From the IMG/VR virus record IMGVR_UViG_3300032265_003138, positions 1 to 42,830 of that record: DNA of 42,830 bases. The stretch is one strand, 5' to 3'. Under the pieces are notes generated by a model. It was not told where the DNA came from. It saw nothing but the letters and a program-made list of their open reading frames with translations, and made no database searches. Made by a program: the position numbers and the translations under genes. Shown here piece after piece: positions 1 to 36,170 of this stretch (position 1 is its first letter; each line of letters begins with the position of its first letter). The stretch is from a virus.

Positions 1-123
1 CTGCGCGCCACCACGGCGCGCCACGTCCAGGCTGATGCCACGCCGCACCCGGTGCTGATCGCCCGCATCGATGGCCCGGATGGCTCGCTTCGAGGCGTTC
101 ATCGCACCTGGCTGGGGCAGGCC
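1..123. repeat. Terminal redundancy, left copy
   Basis: These 123 bases are identical to the last 123 bases of the window (42708-42830). The copy lies inside the primase coding sequence, which continues in frame from the right end to the left end. A repeat with no boundary of its own, in the middle of a gene, is best explained as the overlap left when a circular or circularly permuted genome is assembled. A true packaged terminal repeat is less likely. Confidence 0.95.
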
Positions 124-552
124 GGTGCGCGCTGGACGAAGCTGGCCGGCGTCGGCGACCCGCGCCGCAGCCTGGGGCCGCTGAAGGGCAACGCCATCCG
201 GCTGTTTCCGGTGGCCGATGTGCTGGGCGTGGCCGAAGGCATTGAAACCGCCCTGGCTGCCACCGCGCTGTCCGGCCTGCCGGTTTGGTCATGCCTGAAC
301 GCCACCGCGCTGGCGGCGGTGGAACTGCCCTTGGATGTGCGCCGGTTGGTGGTGTTCGCGGACCGGGACCGGCCGCGCCTGAGGGCCGAAGGGCATCAGG
401 GCCAGGATATGCCGGACGGCGCCGGAATCCATTTTGCCCGTCAACTGGCAGGCCGCGCCACCGCGCAGGGCATCGCGGTGGAAATCCGCGCGCCTGCCCA
501 GTTGGGTGATTACGCCGATCTGTTGCAGCAACAAGCGGAGGTCGCCGCATGA
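1..552 (+). CDS. DNA primase, C-terminal part (Toprim domain); 5' part at 42213-42830
   Basis: This is the second part of a primase split by the window ends. Joined through the 123-base overlap it gives one 348-residue protein. The Toprim fold, which binds metal and catalyses primer synthesis, is visible: EGIE at about residues 244-247 of the joined protein and an FADRD stretch with D286 and D288. The zinc finger lies in the other part. The stop overlaps the next start (ATGA at 549-552). The protein probably primes phage replication together with the ATPase encoded at 1590. There is no DnaB-like helicase domain on the same chain. Confidence 0.9.
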   Translation: MRATTARHVQADATPHPVLIARIDGPDGSLRGVHRTWLGQAGARWTKLAGVGDPRRSLGPLKGNAIRLFPVADVLGVAEGIETALAATALSGLPVWSCLNATALAAVELPLDVRRLVVFADRDRPRLRAEGHQGQDMPDGAGIHFARQLAGRATAQGIAVEIRAPAQLGDYADLLQQQAEVAA

Positions 553-826: not shown

Positions 827-1071
827 CCCCCACCGTGTCGCTGCTGGTGGTTCAAGCGGTCTGTGCTGCTCGGCTGGCGCGGCTTGCTGAATGCTTGTTC
901 CTTGCCGGCGCTGATGAGGGCGGGATCGCGGCCCTTCACCGTGTGCGATGTGCTTTCACGGACCTGCATGGCGCTACCACGGCGCTGCTGAACAGCGGGC
1001 ATCGGGCAGACGATGTGTGGCAGCGAAAGGCGGATGTAGTCATTGCCGAAATGCGTGGCCATGCCGAATAG
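823..1071 (+). CDS. Hypothetical early protein, 82 aa
   Basis: The start ATG at 823 overlaps the previous stop by the usual ATGA. The protein is alpha-helical in character, rich in Ala, Leu and Arg, with three cysteines in the first half and no recognisable motif. An upstream in-frame extension exists but would overlap two genes, so the overlap start is preferred. It is followed by a gene that overlaps it by 11 bases. Function unknown. Confidence 0.6.
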   Translation: MTPTVSLLVVQAVCAARLARLAECLFLAGADEGGIAALHRVRCAFTDLHGATTALLNSGHRADDVWQRKADVVIAEMRGHAE

Positions 1072-1399
1072 CCGTTTTGCCACATCCCGGCGCCGCCGGA
1101 CTTGGCCGGTCGCGCTGGGGGATTGCCGCACACCGGCCGAACGGCTGGCGGACGCGCATCGTCGCCTTCGCGCGCCCGGGCATCATGTGCTGCCACCGGC
1201 CCATCTGCGCGCCGGTGCGCTCAGCCTGCGCGATGCGCTGTTGGCAAAGGTGGATTTCTCGAAAGCGGGCTCACCGCAGCGGCGTGCGCTGCTGCGGCTG
1301 GCGGCGCGGCTGCTGGATGCGACGGAAGGCCATGTGCCTGCCGCTGATCTGCCCGCGCTGCTGCAGGAAGCCCGCGCGGCCCTGGGGGTATTGTTGTGA
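1061..1399 (+). CDS. Hypothetical early protein, 112 aa
   Basis: Starts at ATG 1061, overlapping the previous gene by 11 bases, and ends with TGA whose A begins the next ATG. The protein has a basic N-terminus (several arginines) and a helical Ala/Leu/Arg-rich remainder containing an RRALLRLAARLLDA-type helix. I see no catalytic motif. Its position between primase and the large ATPase suggests a replication accessory role, which is inference. Confidence 0.6.
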   Translation: MPNSRFATSRRRRTWPVALGDCRTPAERLADAHRRLRAPGHHVLPPAHLRAGALSLRDALLAKVDFSKAGSPQRRALLRLAARLLDATEGHVPAADLPALLQEARAALGVLL

Positions 1400-1593
1400 T
1401 GAAGCCCTGTTCCGTCGCCCAGCAGGCGCTGGCGCATCTGCGCGCGAACAATCCGGAAGGCGCGCTGGCCGCGCTGCGGGAAGGCCCGGTGCAGCATCTT
1501 TCGGCGGAAGCCCTGCTGGCCGCCCGCCGGCCGGATTTTCTGGTCTATGCCGCCGATCTGCTGCGGCGGATCGCCACGGAGCCGCGCACATGA
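1399..1593 (+). CDS. Hypothetical small early protein, 64 aa
   Basis: ATG at 1399 sits directly on the preceding TGA (1397-1399); a GTG at 1396 is an alternative. The product is helical, with a pattern reminiscent of a short TPR-like helix pair (AQQALAHLRANNPEGALAAL), but it is too short to assign. The stop overlaps the ATPase start (ATGA at 1590). Function unknown. Confidence 0.55.
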   Translation: MKPCSVAQQALAHLRANNPEGALAALREGPVQHLSAEALLAARRPDFLVYAADLLRRIATEPRT

Positions 1594-3524
1594 CCGGCAC
1601 CATTCTGGCGTTCCCCGTGCCGTCCTCGAAACACCCGCCGCTCTCCGGCGACACGGTTATTCCGTTGCGTCCGGCAAAGCCGGAAGATGACCGCAAGGGC
1701 GGCGGCGGCGGCGATGACGCAGGTGGCCGCGGCGCCACCCCGCCGCCGGATTTCGGGCCCGTGGTGGCGCTTGGCACTGAAATGCGGAAGGAAGAACGTG
1801 TGTTCGCTCTGCTCGCCGCCGGTGGCCAGCGCGTCATCCTTTCGGCCAAGAAGCTGCAGACGGTGGCGGACCTGTCCGGCCTGTTCGGCGGCCATCGCCG
1901 CAAGGCCTGGATGGCGGAACGCTGGCCGCAGATGCGCCCGAAGCGGGACGCGACCGGCCGCGTGGTGCGGGACGACGAAGGCAGGATCGAACAGGTGGAA
2001 ACCGGCGATTTTTCCGCCCGGGACCTGGGGGATGCGCTGATTCAGGCTTGTGTCGATCTTGGCCCGGCCCATGCCCTGGATCACCGGCGGGACGGCGTCT
2101 GGCCGGGGCCGGATGGCGGGCTGGTGGTCCATGTCGGCGATCGGCTGTGGACCTTCCCGGATAATGTGGAGCGCAGCTTTGGCTGGCGTCACGGCAATGC
2201 GCTGCACCTGGCGGCCGATGCGCGCCCGGCGCCGGCGGCGGCCGAAAAGGCCGCGACCAAGCAGGATTGCTTGGCGCTGGAAGCCACGCTGAAGCTGTGG
2301 AACTACCACCCGGACGTTGCTGCGGCCGCACCTGCCTATCTGCTGGGCGGCATCGCCGCGGGCATCTATTGCGCGGCGCTGGAATGGGTGCCGCATATCT
2401 GGCTGTCGGGCCCGGCCGGTGCCGGCAAGTCCACGCTGCTGCGTTTTATGGCCGCCGCCTCCGGCGCCGATGCTCCGGCGGAAGACGTGTCGGAACCCTT
2501 TGTTCGGAACGTCCATAACGGCCGCGCCCATGCGATCCTGCTGGATGAGAAGGAGCCGAATACGAAGGGCGTGAATGAAGTGCTGGCGCTGATGCGCGCC
2601 GCGTCCTCCGGCGGCCGGTCTGGCCGGCTGATGGACGGCGCGGTCACCAGCTACGCCGTGCATGCGCCTTTTATTCTGGCCGCCATAAGCACGCCGGCCT
2701 TCGAAGCGGCTGACCTGTCGCGCATCACGGTTATTCAGCTGCGGCGCGGCGGTACGGCCAGCGACGAACACCTGGAAAAGCAGCTTGCGGCGGCCCGGGC
2801 CCTGTATCCGGCGCTGTTGACCCGCGCGGTGCTGGGCTGGCCCCGGTTCCTGGAAAACCGAAAGGTTTATCGTCGCGCGCTGCTGGCGGCGGCGGCCACG
2901 TCGCGCTGCGCCGACCAGCTGGCCACGTTGCTCGCCGGCCGGCGTACGCTGATCGACGATGACGTCATGGACGAAAGCAGCGCCCGGGATGAACTCTCGG
3001 ACCTGAACATTGAAGTGATCAGCGCCGACCGGGCGGAGGAAACAGACGCCGGCCGTCTGGCGCTGTCGCACCTCCTCGCCTCCTCGATCCGCTTGGGCGC
3101 AGACGGCAAGAACGCCACGGTCGCCGCGCTGCTCGAAGAACTGCGCGACCTGGGCGAGGATCTGAAGGCCGCGATCACGGCAGACCCCAGCTATTCCGAA
3201 ATCGAAGGTCGGCTGAAGCGCCGCATCCGCGAAGCCGGCCAGCTGAAGCTGCGATGGTCGCACGGCGAAGGCGTCTATATCGGCCACACCAGCCCCACGC
3301 TGAACCGCATCTTTGAAGGCACCACCTGGGCGAACAGGGTCTGGCGCCAGGTGCTGAAGGAACTGCCGGGCGCCCATGACGGCACCAGCATCTATTTCCG
3401 GGGCGGCGGGCAGGATCGCGCGGTGTTCGTGCCAGAAGCGGCCCTCCGGCTCCCGGGACCCAAGGCGGATGACCCGCTGGCCCAGGTGCAGCCGGCTGTG
3501 GCCGAGGCCCCGCCTGATGCCTAG
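1590..3524 (+). CDS. Large P-loop ATPase, probable replicative helicase/initiator
   Basis: 644 residues. Walker A is GPAGAGKST at residues 274-282 and a Walker B-like AILLDE lies at 315-320. The N-terminal 30-60 residues form a low-complexity Gly/Asp-rich linker. The C-terminal part carries helical domains and ends in a Pro/Ala tail. The layout resembles phage and plasmid DUF927-type or D5-like helicases that pair with a primase. The gene follows the primase operon by ATGA overlap and directly precedes the large dyad element, which fits an origin-binding initiator helicase. ATPase assignment is firm; helicase and origin binding are inferred from context. Confidence 0.75.
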   Translation: MTGTILAFPVPSSKHPPLSGDTVIPLRPAKPEDDRKGGGGGDDAGGRGATPPPDFGPVVALGTEMRKEERVFALLAAGGQRVILSAKKLQTVADLSGLFGGHRRKAWMAERWPQMRPKRDATGRVVRDDEGRIEQVETGDFSARDLGDALIQACVDLGPAHALDHRRDGVWPGPDGGLVVHVGDRLWTFPDNVERSFGWRHGNALHLAADARPAPAAAEKAATKQDCLALEATLKLWNYHPDVAAAAPAYLLGGIAAGIYCAALEWVPHIWLSGPAGAGKSTLLRFMAAASGADAPAEDVSEPFVRNVHNGRAHAILLDEKEPNTKGVNEVLALMRAASSGGRSGRLMDGAVTSYAVHAPFILAAISTPAFEAADLSRITVIQLRRGGTASDEHLEKQLAAARALYPALLTRAVLGWPRFLENRKVYRRALLAAAATSRCADQLATLLAGRRTLIDDDVMDESSARDELSDLNIEVISADRAEETDAGRLALSHLLASSIRLGADGKNATVAALLEELRDLGEDLKAAITADPSYSEIEGRLKRRIREAGQLKLRWSHGEGVYIGHTSPTLNRIFEGTTWANRVWRQVLKELPGAHDGTSIYFRGGGQDRAVFVPEAALRLPGPKADDPLAQVQPAVAEAPPDA

Positions 3525-3543
3525 CCGTTTGAAACCGCGATCC

Positions 3544-3740
3544 GTTTGGCAAATGTTTGGCCCTTGTTTGGGCTAAGGCATTGATAACGCACGCTTCAAA
3601 CAATCAAACGCGCCTTGTGCCTCGCGTGTAGGAAATGGGGGGTTACGGTTTCCTATACGCGATCCCTTTACCCCGTTTGATTGTTTGAAGTGTTTATTAT
3701 CAATAGGTTAGATCAAACAAAACTCAAACATTCCTCAAAC
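3544..3740. other. Concentric dyad with mirrored GTTTG/CAAAC boxes; candidate replication origin/operator
   Basis: All elements are symmetric about position 3642. From outside in: GTTTG boxes at 3544, 3555 and 3566 mirrored by CAAAC boxes at 3714, 3725 and 3736 (both 11-bp pitch); CTAA 3573-3576 with TTAG 3708-3711; TTGATAA 3581-3587 with TTATCAA 3697-3703; a perfect 17-bp arm 3594-3610 with 3674-3690; and a 13-bp arm 3623-3635 with 3649-3661 (one G/T mismatch). It is AT-rich relative to its neighbours and lies between the initiator-like ATPase and the NusG-like gene. Iteron-type origin or large operator are the likely roles. Confidence 0.75.
3685..3714 (+). promoter_or_regulatory. Candidate promoter for the NusG-like gene and late operon
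   Basis: TTGAAG at 3685-3690 and GTTAGATC at 3707-3714 match the alphaproteobacterial housekeeping pattern (TTGACG and GCTANAWC; the latter 7 of 8). Transcription would start near 3720-3722, about 60 bases before the NusG-like start. The three CAAAC boxes overlap or immediately follow the -10 and start point, so whatever binds them could repress or activate this promoter. Confidence 0.4.
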
Positions 3741-3783
3741 ACCCGAAAGCCTGCCGTTTGGCAGAAAGAAAAAGGGAAAGCGG

Positions 3784-4422
3784 ATGCAGAATCGTCTTGA
3801 CGCAACGCGCGGCGCTGATCTATCGATCCCAGCACGGGCGGTCTCGGGTGCGGTCAGCACCCTGGACTGCGGTAGCCGTTCTTCCCTGCGCTGGTACTGC
3901 ATTCAGCACCAGCCCGCTCGCGGTGAAACCGCCGCCCTTGAACTGATCCGCCAGGGCTTTGAAGTCTGGCATCCCCTTCGCCCCGCCACTGTCCGCCACG
4001 CTCGCAAGGTGACCCAGGTGCTGCGGCCGGTCTTCCCGGGCTATATCTTCGTTCGGTTTGATGTGCAGCGCGACCGCTGGCGCTGCATCGTCAGCACCCG
4101 GGGTGTGCATCGGCTGTTTTACTCCTCGCCGGAAACCCCTTGGGCCGTCCGCCCTGGCGTCATTGAAGCCCTGCAGGCCGAACAGGCTGCCGCCGGGTCG
4201 CTGGATCGCCCGGCCGATAGCCTGATCCGCGCCGGCGCCACGGTCCGCATCAACCCCGGATTGCCCATGGGCGATCAGATGGGCCCGGTGCTGCGGGTGG
4301 ATGGCGGCAAGGTCACGGTGGAAGTCGCGCTGTTTGGGCGCCCGATCCGGGTTCGGGTGCCAGTCACGGATCTGGAACTGGTCTCGCCCGCTCCCGCCTT
4401 CGCCAGCCCCGCCGCCGCATAG
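3784..4422 (+). CDS. NusG/RfaH-like transcription antiterminator
   Basis: 212 residues. The N-terminal NGN domain spans about 35-133: it begins RWYCIQHQP and contains the RPVFPGYIFVRFD stretch (81-93) typical of NusG and RfaH. A KOW-like segment follows at about 148-200 (GATVRINPG to VTDLELV). The first 33 residues are an extra N-terminal tail. The start has AAGGGAAAG upstream. Proteins of this family bind RNA polymerase and suppress pausing or termination. As the first gene of a roughly 29-kb rightward operon, it is likely the late-gene processivity factor; that role is inference. Confidence 0.8.
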   Translation: MQNRLDATRGADLSIPARAVSGAVSTLDCGSRSSLRWYCIQHQPARGETAALELIRQGFEVWHPLRPATVRHARKVTQVLRPVFPGYIFVRFDVQRDRWRCIVSTRGVHRLFYSSPETPWAVRPGVIEALQAEQAAAGSLDRPADSLIRAGATVRINPGLPMGDQMGPVLRVDGGKVTVEVALFGRPIRVRVPVTDLELVSPAPAFASPAAA

Positions 4423-4431
4423 GAAGCCCAG

Positions 4432-5157
4432 GTGGAAATCACGGTCCGCGATAACTTCGACCGATTCGCTTCCATGCTGACGAACGCGGAGCGCGAGCAT
4501 CTGCCCTTTGCTACCGCCCTTGCGCTGAACGCCACCGCCCGTCAGGTGAAAGCCGATCTGATCCAGGGCATGAAGGGCGCGTTTGATCGCCCCACGCCCT
4601 TCACGCTGAACAGCCTGTTCATCAGCCCGGCAACCAAGACCGCCCCGGTGGCGCAAGTCTACTTCAAGGATTACGCGCCCAAGGGCTCGCCGGCCGGCAA
4701 ATACCTCGCCCCGCAGATCGAAGGCGGCGCTCGCCGGCAAAAGGCCATGGAGCGCAAACTGTCCTCGGTGCTGGGTGGCCGCGCAATCTTCCTTGCGCCC
4801 AGCAAGCGCACCCAGCTCGACGGCTATGGCAATCCCAATCGGGGCCAGATGGCCACCATCCTGACCCGCCTTGCCCCCGGAACCCTGGGGCTTGGGCGGG
4901 CCAATAGCGGCAAGGGCAAGCGCCGCAAGGAAGCCTTCTTTGCCATCGCGCCGGGGCGCAACGCTGGCGGTCTGCCGGTGGGGATCTACCAGCGGAAGGG
5001 TAGGGAGGTAATCCCCGTCCTCACCATCGCTAAGGCCGCGCCAAAGTATTCTCGCCGCTTCGACTTCTTCGGTATTGGCCTTCGAAGCATCGCTGCAAAC
5101 CTAGACAAGATGCTGCCAGCGGCCATCGAAAAGGCCCTTCGTTCGAGCCGCCGTTAG
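4432..5157 (+). CDS. Probable minor tail protein Z-like/virion morphogenesis protein
   Basis: 241 residues from a GTG start at 4432 with AGGAAG 5-10 bases upstream. The N-terminus has the motif of this phage family: LPFATALALNATARQVK, then FDRPTPFTLNSLF at about residues 51-63, then a basic middle and C-terminus. I recognise this pattern from tail-completion or minor tail Z-like proteins, but the placement between the antiterminator and terminase is unusual for a tail gene. It has no signal peptide or membrane segment. Confidence 0.5.
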   Translation: MEITVRDNFDRFASMLTNAEREHLPFATALALNATARQVKADLIQGMKGAFDRPTPFTLNSLFISPATKTAPVAQVYFKDYAPKGSPAGKYLAPQIEGGARRQKAMERKLSSVLGGRAIFLAPSKRTQLDGYGNPNRGQMATILTRLAPGTLGLGRANSGKGKRRKEAFFAIAPGRNAGGLPVGIYQRKGREVIPVLTIAKAAPKYSRRFDFFGIGLRSIAANLDKMLPAAIEKALRSSRR

Positions 5158-33105: not shown

Positions 33106-33181
33106 TGGCGACCACGGCAGGACTCGGGCCTGCATCCTCCGTACTAGAAAAACGGCGCTCATCCAGTTGAGCTACGCGGCC
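33106..33181 (-). tRNA. tRNA-Arg (UCU)
   Basis: 76 bases including an encoded CCA (33106-33108 on the reverse strand). The acceptor stem pairs fully with two G-U pairs; D stem GCTC/GAGC; anticodon stem CCGTT/TACGG with a terminal T-T mismatch and loop TTTCTAG, giving anticodon UCU for AGA. The T-loop reads CCCGAGT instead of TTCRANT, so it is atypical. It would supply a codon rare in this GC-rich genome. It lies four bases after the other tRNA-Arg. Confidence 0.8.
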
Positions 33182-33185
33182 TTGA

Positions 33186-33257
33186 TGTGCCGGGCGGGAT
33201 TTGAACCCGCAACCTTGCGCCTAGGATGCGCCCGCTCGTCCATTGAGCTTCCGGCAC
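33186..33257 (-). tRNA. tRNA-Arg (CCU)
   Basis: 72 bases, no encoded CCA. Acceptor stem GTGCCGG/CCGGCAC is perfect; D stem GCTC/GAGC; anticodon loop ATCCTAG gives CCU for AGG; T arm GCGGG, TTCAAAT, CCCGC is canonical. The first anticodon-stem pair is G-A. Positions 8 and 9 are both A instead of the usual U8. It is transcribed with tRNA-Arg (UCU) and with the three small leftward genes upstream. Confidence 0.85.
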
Positions 33258-34153: not shown

Positions 34154-34182
34154 TTCTGCCATAGCTTATGTCAGGTTGTCAA
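34154..34182 (-). promoter_or_regulatory. Candidate leftward promoter for small genes and tRNAs
   Basis: On the reverse strand TTGACA (34182-34177) and GCAGAA (34159-34154) are separated by 17 bases, the same layout as the two immunity promoters. GCTATGGC, closer to the GCTANAWC type, overlaps with a shorter spacing. It lies in the divergent gap with the recombinase-like gene. Expected start near 34147. Confidence 0.35.
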
Positions 34183-34200
34183 TCAGAAAAAGAGTGGCAC

Positions 34201-34803
34201 ATGAGACTAGGCTATATCAGGATCGACAAGGCAGGCCCCGCCCGCGATGAGCAGGAAGCGGCGTTACGTCGCGCGGGGATTGCGGACTGGTCGCCTGACG
34301 GCCCGGTCTATGTCGATCCAGTCCCGCCGAAGCGGCCGAAGCCCGGCACCGACCCGCTGGCGGCTCGCACCGAGGCTATCCGCGCTCTGCGGCCGGGCGA
34401 CGAGTTGGTTATCCACTCGGCGGCCAGGTTGGGCGCCACGCGCGGCGACGTGCTGGCGGCTCTTGATGCCATCGGCCGGGCCGAGGCTGCGGTCTACGAT
34501 TGCGCGGCGGCCGAGACCGTCACGCCGCACCCCTCGGCGGTGTCTATGATCGCGTTCGCGGCTCGGGCCGAAAGCCAGGGCCAGCAAGAGCGGGCGGCCA
34601 AGGCAAGGCGCGGCATTACTCGCCGGGCGGGGCCGCCGGCCGCGTTGACCGGCAAGAAACTGAAGGAGGCACAAGAGTTATGGACGAACCCCGAGACGAC
34701 TGCAAAGCAAGTAGCGGAGGCGACGGGAGCAAGCCCGCGAACGCTTTACCGCCGGTTTGGCCCGAAGGGCACGCCGATCTTCGGCAGACCAGTCCGCAAA
34801 TGA
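34201..34803 (+). CDS. Serine-recombinase-like protein lacking the catalytic serine, Hin-type HTH
   Basis: 200 residues. The N-terminal 110 residues follow the resolvase fold: LGYIRIDKAGPARDEQEAAL, then AIRALRPGDELVIHSAARLGAT and DVLAALDAIG. The invariant catalytic serine of the RVS motif is Asp9 here (RID), and the second active-site arginine of RLGRS is Ala, so strand cleavage is not expected. The C-terminal domain (about 145-200) is a Hin-like HTH (LTGKKLKEAQELW, TAKQVAEATGASPRTLYRRF). It is likely a DNA-binding regulator or recombination partner. Confidence 0.7.
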   Translation: MRLGYIRIDKAGPARDEQEAALRRAGIADWSPDGPVYVDPVPPKRPKPGTDPLAARTEAIRALRPGDELVIHSAARLGATRGDVLAALDAIGRAEAAVYDCAAAETVTPHPSAVSMIAFAARAESQGQQERAAKARRGITRRAGPPAALTGKKLKEAQELWTNPETTAKQVAEATGASPRTLYRRFGPKGTPIFGRPVRK

Positions 34804-34960: not shown

Positions 34961-34964
34961 CTAA
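34848..34964 (+). CDS. Possible 38-residue peptide in AT-rich gap
   Basis: ATG 34848 has AAAGG nine bases upstream and runs to TAA 34962-34964, overlapping the integrase stop from the other strand by four bases. The product (METIFVASRAIIENQRRTL and on) has a normal mix of residues but codon use unlike the rest of the genome because of its AT content. It may be chance in an attP region. Confidence 0.25.
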   Translation: METIFVASRAIIENQRRTLENLQQYQHFGLIITKIARI

Positions 34965-35941
34965 ACTCCTGTTTTCTTTGATCGTTTTCCAGTTACTCGG
35001 ACGTTTTCCAACCGCACAATTGCCGCCTGCGCCAGCGCATGCTGGTCCGCCGCCTTTGTGTAATGCTGCACCATCGAAAGGGATTTCCACCCGCCGATGG
35101 CGGCGATTTCGTGCAGCGTCGCGCCGGCCTGCGCCAGGCGCACAGCGGCCAGCTTGCGAAGCCCATGCAGGGTCAACCCTGGCCAGCCAATGGCTCGCAT
35201 CCTGGCGCCAAGCTCCCGGGATAGGTGCCGGTCAGTCCAGGCGCCACCGGCCGGCGCGGCGAGGATCGTGGTGGTGGTCGTGGTCTGCCGCCAAGTTTCG
35301 AGCAGGGCGCGCAGCTCTCGGTGCGCTGGCACTACCAGGGCCGCGCCGGTCTTGCCCTGCCGCAACCGAATCGCCGCGCCATCGTACTGCCCCCAGGATA
35401 ACCGGATCAGGTCACCCCGCCGCTGCCCGGTATAGACCGCCAGCAGCACCACCCTCCGGTAGGGCTCTGGCAATTGGGTCAGCGCATCAGCCAGCGCGGC
35501 CTCGGGCCATGCTGCCAGTTCGCCCTTGCGAAGGGGCTTGAGCCTCGCGGCCGGGTTGGTTTCCGCAAGCTCGGCGTCGATCGCCCATGCCCACAGCGCC
35601 GATGCCGCCCGGACGAAGCCGGTGGCTGCACCATTGCCCCGAGCGACGGCAATCGCGTTCCGCAGCGCAATGATATGCCGCCGCCGCACATCTGCGGCCT
35701 GCTCGCGTTCCAAACCGGTGAGGCTGCGAAGATAGATCGTGTAATTGGCGCGGGTGGCGTCCGCCAAGTCGGCCCATTCGGGGCTTCGGCGCCATGCCTC
35801 AATCAGCGCCCCCACGCTGCCGGCGACAATCCGCGCCGGCGGCTCGCGTTCAGCCCGTGGCCCGCGCTGATAGCGGTATTCCCGGACCTCGCCGGAGGCT
35901 AGCGTGCGGCGAACGACCTTGACGGCCCTGGGCAATGGCAT
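34961..35941 (-). CDS. int: Tyrosine integrase
   Basis: 326 residues from ATG 35941, which has GAGG nine bases upstream; an ATG at 35965 would add eight residues. The catalytic set is present: TGQR with Arg174, Lys197 in RQGKTG, His259-x-x-Arg262 (HGLR), GGW with Trp285, and nucleophile Tyr294 in VQHYTKAAD. A core-binding SAM-like region precedes it. It integrates the circular phage genome at attP/attB. It is transcribed leftward after the Xis-like gene, which overlaps its start. Confidence 0.92.
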   Translation of the reverse strand: MPLPRAVKVVRRTLASGEVREYRYQRGPRAEREPPARIVAGSVGALIEAWRRSPEWADLADATRANYTIYLRSLTGLEREQAADVRRRHIIALRNAIAVARGNGAATGFVRAASALWAWAIDAELAETNPAARLKPLRKGELAAWPEAALADALTQLPEPYRRVVLLAVYTGQRRGDLIRLSWGQYDGAAIRLRQGKTGAALVVPAHRELRALLETWRQTTTTTTILAAPAGGAWTDRHLSRELGARMRAIGWPGLTLHGLRKLAAVRLAQAGATLHEIAAIGGWKSLSMVQHYTKAADQHALAQAAIVRLENVRVTGKRSKKTGV

Positions 35942-36170
35942 GGGCGGCGGCCTCAACTGCGGCATCTATGCCGGCCGGGGCAGCATTGCCGCCGGCCAGC
36001 GCGGCGTCTACCGCCGCGACCGACCAGCGCGGGGAGCGGGGGCCTAAGTGCATGCTGGGGGCCGGCAGCAGGCCGCGGCGCAGCATCGCGCGGATCTGAT
36101 GCACGTCCACGCTGATGTGCGCGGCCAGGGCGCGGCGATCAAGCCAAGCGGGGCGCGGCGGCTCAGGCAT
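35850..36170 (-). CDS. AlpA/excisionase-like HTH protein
   Basis: 106 residues from ATG 36170, overlapping the previous stop by eight bases. Residues about 8-60 (WLDRRALAAHISVDVHQIR, then a wing with PRSPRWSVAAVDAAL) are a MerR/AlpA-type DNA-binding domain as in excisionases. The C-terminal 40 residues overlap the integrase frame by 92 bases, which would couple the two. Directionality control of integrase is the likely role. Confidence 0.65.
   Translation of the reverse strand: MPEPPRPAWLDRRALAAHISVDVHQIRAMLRRGLLPAPSMHLGPRSPRWSVAAVDAALAGGNAAPAGIDAAVEAAAHAIAQGRQGRSPHASLRRGPGIPLSARATG

Follow-up and report, generated by a model that had tools for sequence, protein, structure and literature searches.

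The locus and the geometry of the box array

The phage DNA analysed here (the window; 42,830 bp, IMG/VR record IMGVR_UViG_3300032265_003138) encodes terminase, portal, protease and decoration proteins as well as a tyrosine integrase at 34964–35965. A pair of neighbouring tRNA-Arg genes (anticodons tct and cct) lies on the minus strand at 33106–33257, near a resolvase-like ORF (34168–34803). The region of interest, 3544–3740, is a dyad centred at 3642 and was confirmed to be non-coding, in agreement with the first-pass annotation of this DNA. The features of the locus are listed below.

52..552, plus strand: Toprim primase half of a split primase-helicase (Pfam Toprim_3, 4e-15; phrog_510 DNA primase)
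1590..3524, plus strand: predicted MCM/SF3-like initiator helicase, 644 aa from an inferred start codon, the proposed box-binding protein (phrog_21086/phrog_35358)
3527..3531, plus strand: extra GTTTG box lacking an exact mirror partner, retained in the nearest relative, L003 (CTAGCCGTTTGAAA)
3544..3570, plus strand: outer-left box array, GTTTG at 3544, 3555 and 3566 (pitch 11), conserved in L003
3597..3609, minus strand: inner-left box pair, CAAAC at 3597 and 3605 (pitch 8), within the arm 3594–3610
3610..3674, no strand: centre between the inner boxes, a candidate melting region, including the stem 3622–3635/3649–3662 that is not conserved in L003
3675..3687, plus strand: inner-right box pair, GTTTG at 3675 and 3683 (pitch 8), within the arm 3674–3690
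3714..3740, minus strand: outer-right box array, CAAAC at 3714, 3725 and 3736 (pitch 11; 12/11 in L003)
3756..3760, plus strand: extra GTTTG box with no exact mirror partner, with a counterpart in L003
3784..4422, plus strand: NusG-like gene downstream of the array, probably outside the mechanism (PF02357, 3.8e-15)

The outer boxes begin 19 bp past the stop codon of the helicase gene. The three GTTTG boxes on the left are mirrored by the three CAAAC boxes on the right, and the 11-bp pitch is exact on both sides. About the same centre CTAA (3573–3576) pairs with TTAG (3708–3711) and TTGATAA (3581–3587) with TTATCAA (3697–3703), the 17-bp arms 3594–3610 and 3674–3690 match perfectly, and the inner stem 3622–3635/3649–3662 is paired at 13 of 14 positions. 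The first-pass annotation had described five pairs of elements sharing the centre 3642, and all were found in place. Complementarity over 67-nt arms about this centre is 76%. Each 17-bp arm consists of two boxes at 8-bp pitch, which had gone uncounted. With > for GTTTG and < for CAAAC, the full box order is 3527>, 3544>, 3555>, 3566>, 3597<, 3605<, 3675>, 3683>, 3714<, 3725<, 3736< and 3756>, with successive distances of 17, 11, 11, 31, 8, 70, 8, 31, 11, 11 and 20 bp. Ten of the 12 boxes are exactly mirrored, the exceptions being those at 3527 and 3756.

The dyad is genuine and greatly exceeds chance expectation. The earlier claim to that effect was borne out by shuffling of positions 3525–3783: the architecture score of 10 compares with a best of 6 in 2000 dinucleotide-preserving shuffles, and the dyad score of 40 with a best of 16 in 500 shuffles. 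When 12 boxes were placed at random over the same span, ten mirrored boxes were reached in none of 3000 trials. A scan of the window located this one array only. The GC content of the centre, 3610–3674, is 0.58 compared with 0.67 for the window, such that the centre is modestly AT-richer rather than AT-rich.

The adjacent helicase and its neighbours

Matches to phrog_21086 and phrog_35358 identify the product of 1590–3524 as the helicase part of a phage primase-helicase that is split in two, and its Walker A motif reads GPAGAGKS. The ORF 948–3524 is open for 858 codons and homology begins near codon 255; its first ~210 codons are probably untranslated, the primase half being the separate ORF 52–552. 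The AlphaFold (AF2) model of the helicase has a pLDDT of 85.8. Its top PDB match, near full length, is SCCmec Cch (PDB accession number 5dgk), with a Z score of 17.1 and an RMSD of 6.5 over 433 aligned positions of model residues 54–625. Further structural matches comprise the NrS-1 helicase, SaPIbov1 Rep (8tch; Foldseek E value 9.2e-6) and MCM helicases. The model thus predicts a fold like that of SCCmec Cch and SaPIbov1 Rep, which are initiator helicases of the self-loading kind; this class assignment is at the fold level only, sequence searches with the helicase having named no family. The C-terminal domain alone yields weak winged-helix-like matches (best Z score 5; SaPIbov1 Rep, 3.4). Sliding-window covariation between box sequence and helicase segments, with shared ancestry retained in the data, gave no C-terminal peak.

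On the other side of the array, a phrog_1924 'minor tail' gene (4432–5157) lies between the NusG and terminase genes; the gene is found at the genome end in some Pseudomonas phage records.

Conservation and variation of the array in relatives

The nearest relative, L003, shares 66% identity in the helicase and 65% in NusG. It retains the boxes and the 17-bp arms and lacks the left TTGATAA and the 14-bp core stem. The absence of this stem from L003 led to rejection of the cruciform-capable core that the first-pass annotation had envisaged. Synechococcus phage MinM1, with 28% identity in the helicase and 31% in NusG, has the same intergenic layout built from TGTGAG/CTCACA boxes. Scans for close relatives with NusG and with the full 858-aa ORF gave no match, and neither did a DNA search of phages. 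A DNA pattern search with the 17-bp arms returned L003 and one unrelated viral contig (L080), which lacks relatives of the helicase and NusG; there, the same 13-bp palindromic arms stand ~64 bp apart at 459–556, perhaps by chance.

Alignment of helicases of this kind brought 73 more loci. Arrays were sought with a detector that requires a repeated 5-mer, an inner pitch of 7–10 bp, an outer pitch of 9–13 bp, opposite orientations and a centre of 40–110 bp; these limits were chosen after the first examples had been seen, though recognition of the arrays in phages phi1422 and Sfi21 did not depend on the full set. An array lies directly downstream of the helicase gene (within 1.5 kb) in 36 of the 79 loci examined, about half of the loci have none by this detector, and some arrays lie 1–3 kb further from the gene. 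Over whole loci, ~40 records carry an array, some 27 of them distinct and several near duplicates; after shuffling of the same 1.67 Mb, no array was detected. Arrays are confined to loci with this helicase, those fetched by their terminase and devoid of the helicase having none. No array was detected near the gene in ST4, Dolphis, PHB04 and PY223, which are larger phages with fused primase-helicases, or in Mwe-JY13 and S-H1. A NusG-like gene adjoins the array in the window, L003, MinM1 and L095; elsewhere the neighbour encodes a DUF6362 protein, a Cro-like protein or one of several unnamed proteins.

The common plan places outer boxes ~11 bp apart, followed after 31 or ~42 bp by inner boxes of opposite orientation 8–9 bp apart, then a centre of 50–90 bp and the mirror image of the first half. 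The typical number of boxes is 12, three outer and three inner per side, and variants with two inner boxes occur, as in the window. All 12 boxes are mirrored in L095, L156 and L088. The same holds for the GTTAC boxes of Bdellovibrio phage phi1422, which are spaced 9,10,15,63,8|90|8,63,15,10,9 and flank an AT-rich centre; inner and outer boxes there mostly point the same way, and the detector did not pick this array. A scan of genome contigs added a single relative, which is a prophage in Pseudoroseomonas cervicalis ATCC 49957. Eleven GGTAAC boxes follow its helicase gene (L168, 6718–6941), the right inner array being incomplete, and this array hints at alphaproteobacterial hosts for the phage group. 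In Pseudomonas phage ZRG1 an array of the same type, made of CTAAC boxes (L165, 11894–12112), lies ~4.7 kb downstream of the primase gene.

The box itself differs between phages (GTTTG, GTTCC, GTCCC, GTTAC, GTGAG and others). When oriented by the architecture, on the inner-left strand, the boxes read TCAAACA, TGGAACA, TGGGACA, TGTAACC and TGTTACC, with CGTTACC, GGTTACC, TGTGAGG, TGTGAAG and TGGAAGG on the same frame. Because boxes of such varied sequence align on one frame, recognition appears to drift inside a TGNNAC-like frame without a change of layout.

The gap between inner and outer boxes changes stepwise, clustering near 32, 42–44 and 54 bp, which are helical-turn steps (R of 0.56 at 10.5 bp; ~5e-5 relative to uniform spacing, uncorrected for shared ancestry); no helical periodicity is seen for the central distance. 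These steps of about one turn lend good support to the suggestion of the first-pass annotation that a protein, for which the ATPase is the proposed candidate, binds the boxes on one face of the helix. That annotation had also proposed a search of relatives for the same box array and for compensating changes in the arms. The layout does recur, in the ~40 records, but arm pairing outside the boxes is low: the boxes are mostly complementary, whereas the other arm positions reach 0.46 and the centre 0.33, a pattern that seems to fit protein sites better than a folded structure. The centre lies on average 7 GC points under its locus (lower in 23 of 28) and is very AT-rich in low-GC phages. GC skew, proposed earlier as a guide to the replication start, switches at the array in six of the nine phages examined, but the change is from + to −, opposite to the usual sense at bacterial origins. 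It is seen in the window (3300–4000), L003, L017, L018, MinM1 (L160) and phi1422 (L169), and is absent in L007, L010 and L015.

Known origins, alternative explanations and a model for helicase loading

Streptococcus phage Sfi21 (NC_000872) has an annotated 302-bp origin directly 3' of its gene for a helicase and putative primase. Within it, two GTTAC boxes at a pitch of 8 bp have mirror counterparts across a 76-bp centre with a GC content of 0.11, and this core is unique in 10.7 kb. The window shares this inner core arrangement: it too has mirrored inner boxes at a pitch of 8 bp, around a centre of 70 bp, 3' of the gene for the replication ATPase, and in both phages the outer boxes face the other way (44/46 bp off in Sfi21). 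GTTAC also fits the TGNNAC frame seen in the relatives' arrays. Sfi21 differs from the window in its box and host and in its irregular outer arrays, and only eight of its boxes mirror, within 2 bp.

The rep-ori regions of SaPI and PICI elements are likewise directly 3' of an initiator helicase, of the same fold class, and there as in the window phages short iteron sets flank a central region and the iterons differ between elements. They are described as two iteron sets with an AT-rich centre, whereas the window has four sets with two pitches and opposite orientations around a centre with a GC content of 0.58; moreover, these elements are satellites and the window is a full tailed phage. In satellite phage P4, crr is directly 3' of the primase-helicase gene and contains type 1 repeats of 8 bp that occur in both orientations at a pitch of 9 bp. 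However, the alpha-bound ori1 and crr of P4 are two separate sites, with a direct 120-bp repeat and no concentric array (score 4). The SCCmec helicase Cch2 binds, through its C-terminal domain, 5-nt iterons downstream of its own gene (PMC7581432), a self-loading helicase gene as predicted for the window, although that site has three iterons only and no mirror array. Recognition, by the C-terminal domain, of iterons immediately 3' of the gene is described for the Cch and SaPIbov1 Rep class as such (PMC7581432). The array of the window can be placed among these systems as a variant of the PICI/SaPI/Sfi21-type phage origins.

A role in transcription control, either as operators for a regulator of the late operon starting at NusG or as an RNA antitermination signal, would suit an array at the border of replication genes and late genes, and a single strand of the region folds well (z −8.3). 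Such stability is, however, expected of any mirrored array, and the complementarity at non-box arm positions and at the centre falls far below that of the boxes. Nor does this role sit easily with a downstream gene that varies while the upstream helicase is conserved, with the arrays that lie further away, or with the same core inside the annotated Sfi21 origin; promoter, terminator and Rfam searches at the array gave no match. We consider it improbable. A replication/late-transcription switch, also raised by the first-pass annotation, is left unsupported because NusG adjoins the array in some relatives only, other genes standing there in the rest, and no promoter or terminator was found.

Still less probable, to the point of being nearly negligible, is a cos or pac packaging site cut or bound by terminase. 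The lambda-type terminase is 1.5–2 kb downstream of the array in the window, but relatives with the terminase alone have no array and the annotated cos of Sfi21 lies away from its array. In phi1422 the array is ~7.5 kb from terL, and circular permutation with terminal repeats has been reported for its genome (PMC3391216), which argues further against packaging. Regular-pitch boxes are also known in centromeres and att arms, and the phage has a tyrosine integrase; yet neither ParA/ParB nor an integrase gene adjoins the array, which goes together with the helicase in all lineages recovered. A partition site of plasmid type or an attachment site is therefore just as improbable as a packaging site.

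The same layout, with other box sequences, recurs in dozens of phages that bear the helicase, and the array is therefore most likely a landing site for two helicase rings. With high confidence we interpret it as a phage replication origin for a double hexamer of the adjacent helicase. An origin had been among the first suggestions for this dyad, and it is now well supported by an array that tracks the helicase across phages and by the core shared with the annotated Sfi21 origin. By analogy with SaPI Rep and Cch2, the helicase would bind the boxes through its C-terminal domain. In each half of the array, outer boxes at ~11-bp pitch and opposed inner boxes at 8–9-bp pitch, held to one constant face of the helix, would seed a single hexamer, and the symmetry of the halves would set the two hexamers face to face across the central 50–90 bp. 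The centre would then melt, leading to bidirectional replication primed by the adjacent phage primase. That the twelve boxes provide one box per helicase subunit is a guess. More broadly, and doubtfully, the arrays could embody a general assembly code for self-loading helicases, in which the 12 boxes match the 12 subunits of a double hexamer, with six boxes on either side, two pitches (8–9 and ~11 bp), opposite orientations and gap changes by whole turns only. Such a code would hold in phages of Proteobacteria, cyanobacteria and Firmicutes alike, whereas the box sequence would be free to change, letting each origin ignore the helicases of its neighbours.

For the question of how ring helicases select an origin and come to form two opposed rings in the absence of a loader, the array offers a testable, ruler-like layout with dozens of natural variants. 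Phage origins may be found by their architecture where the box sequence differs, and the origin plan of phage satellites would extend to complete tailed phages.
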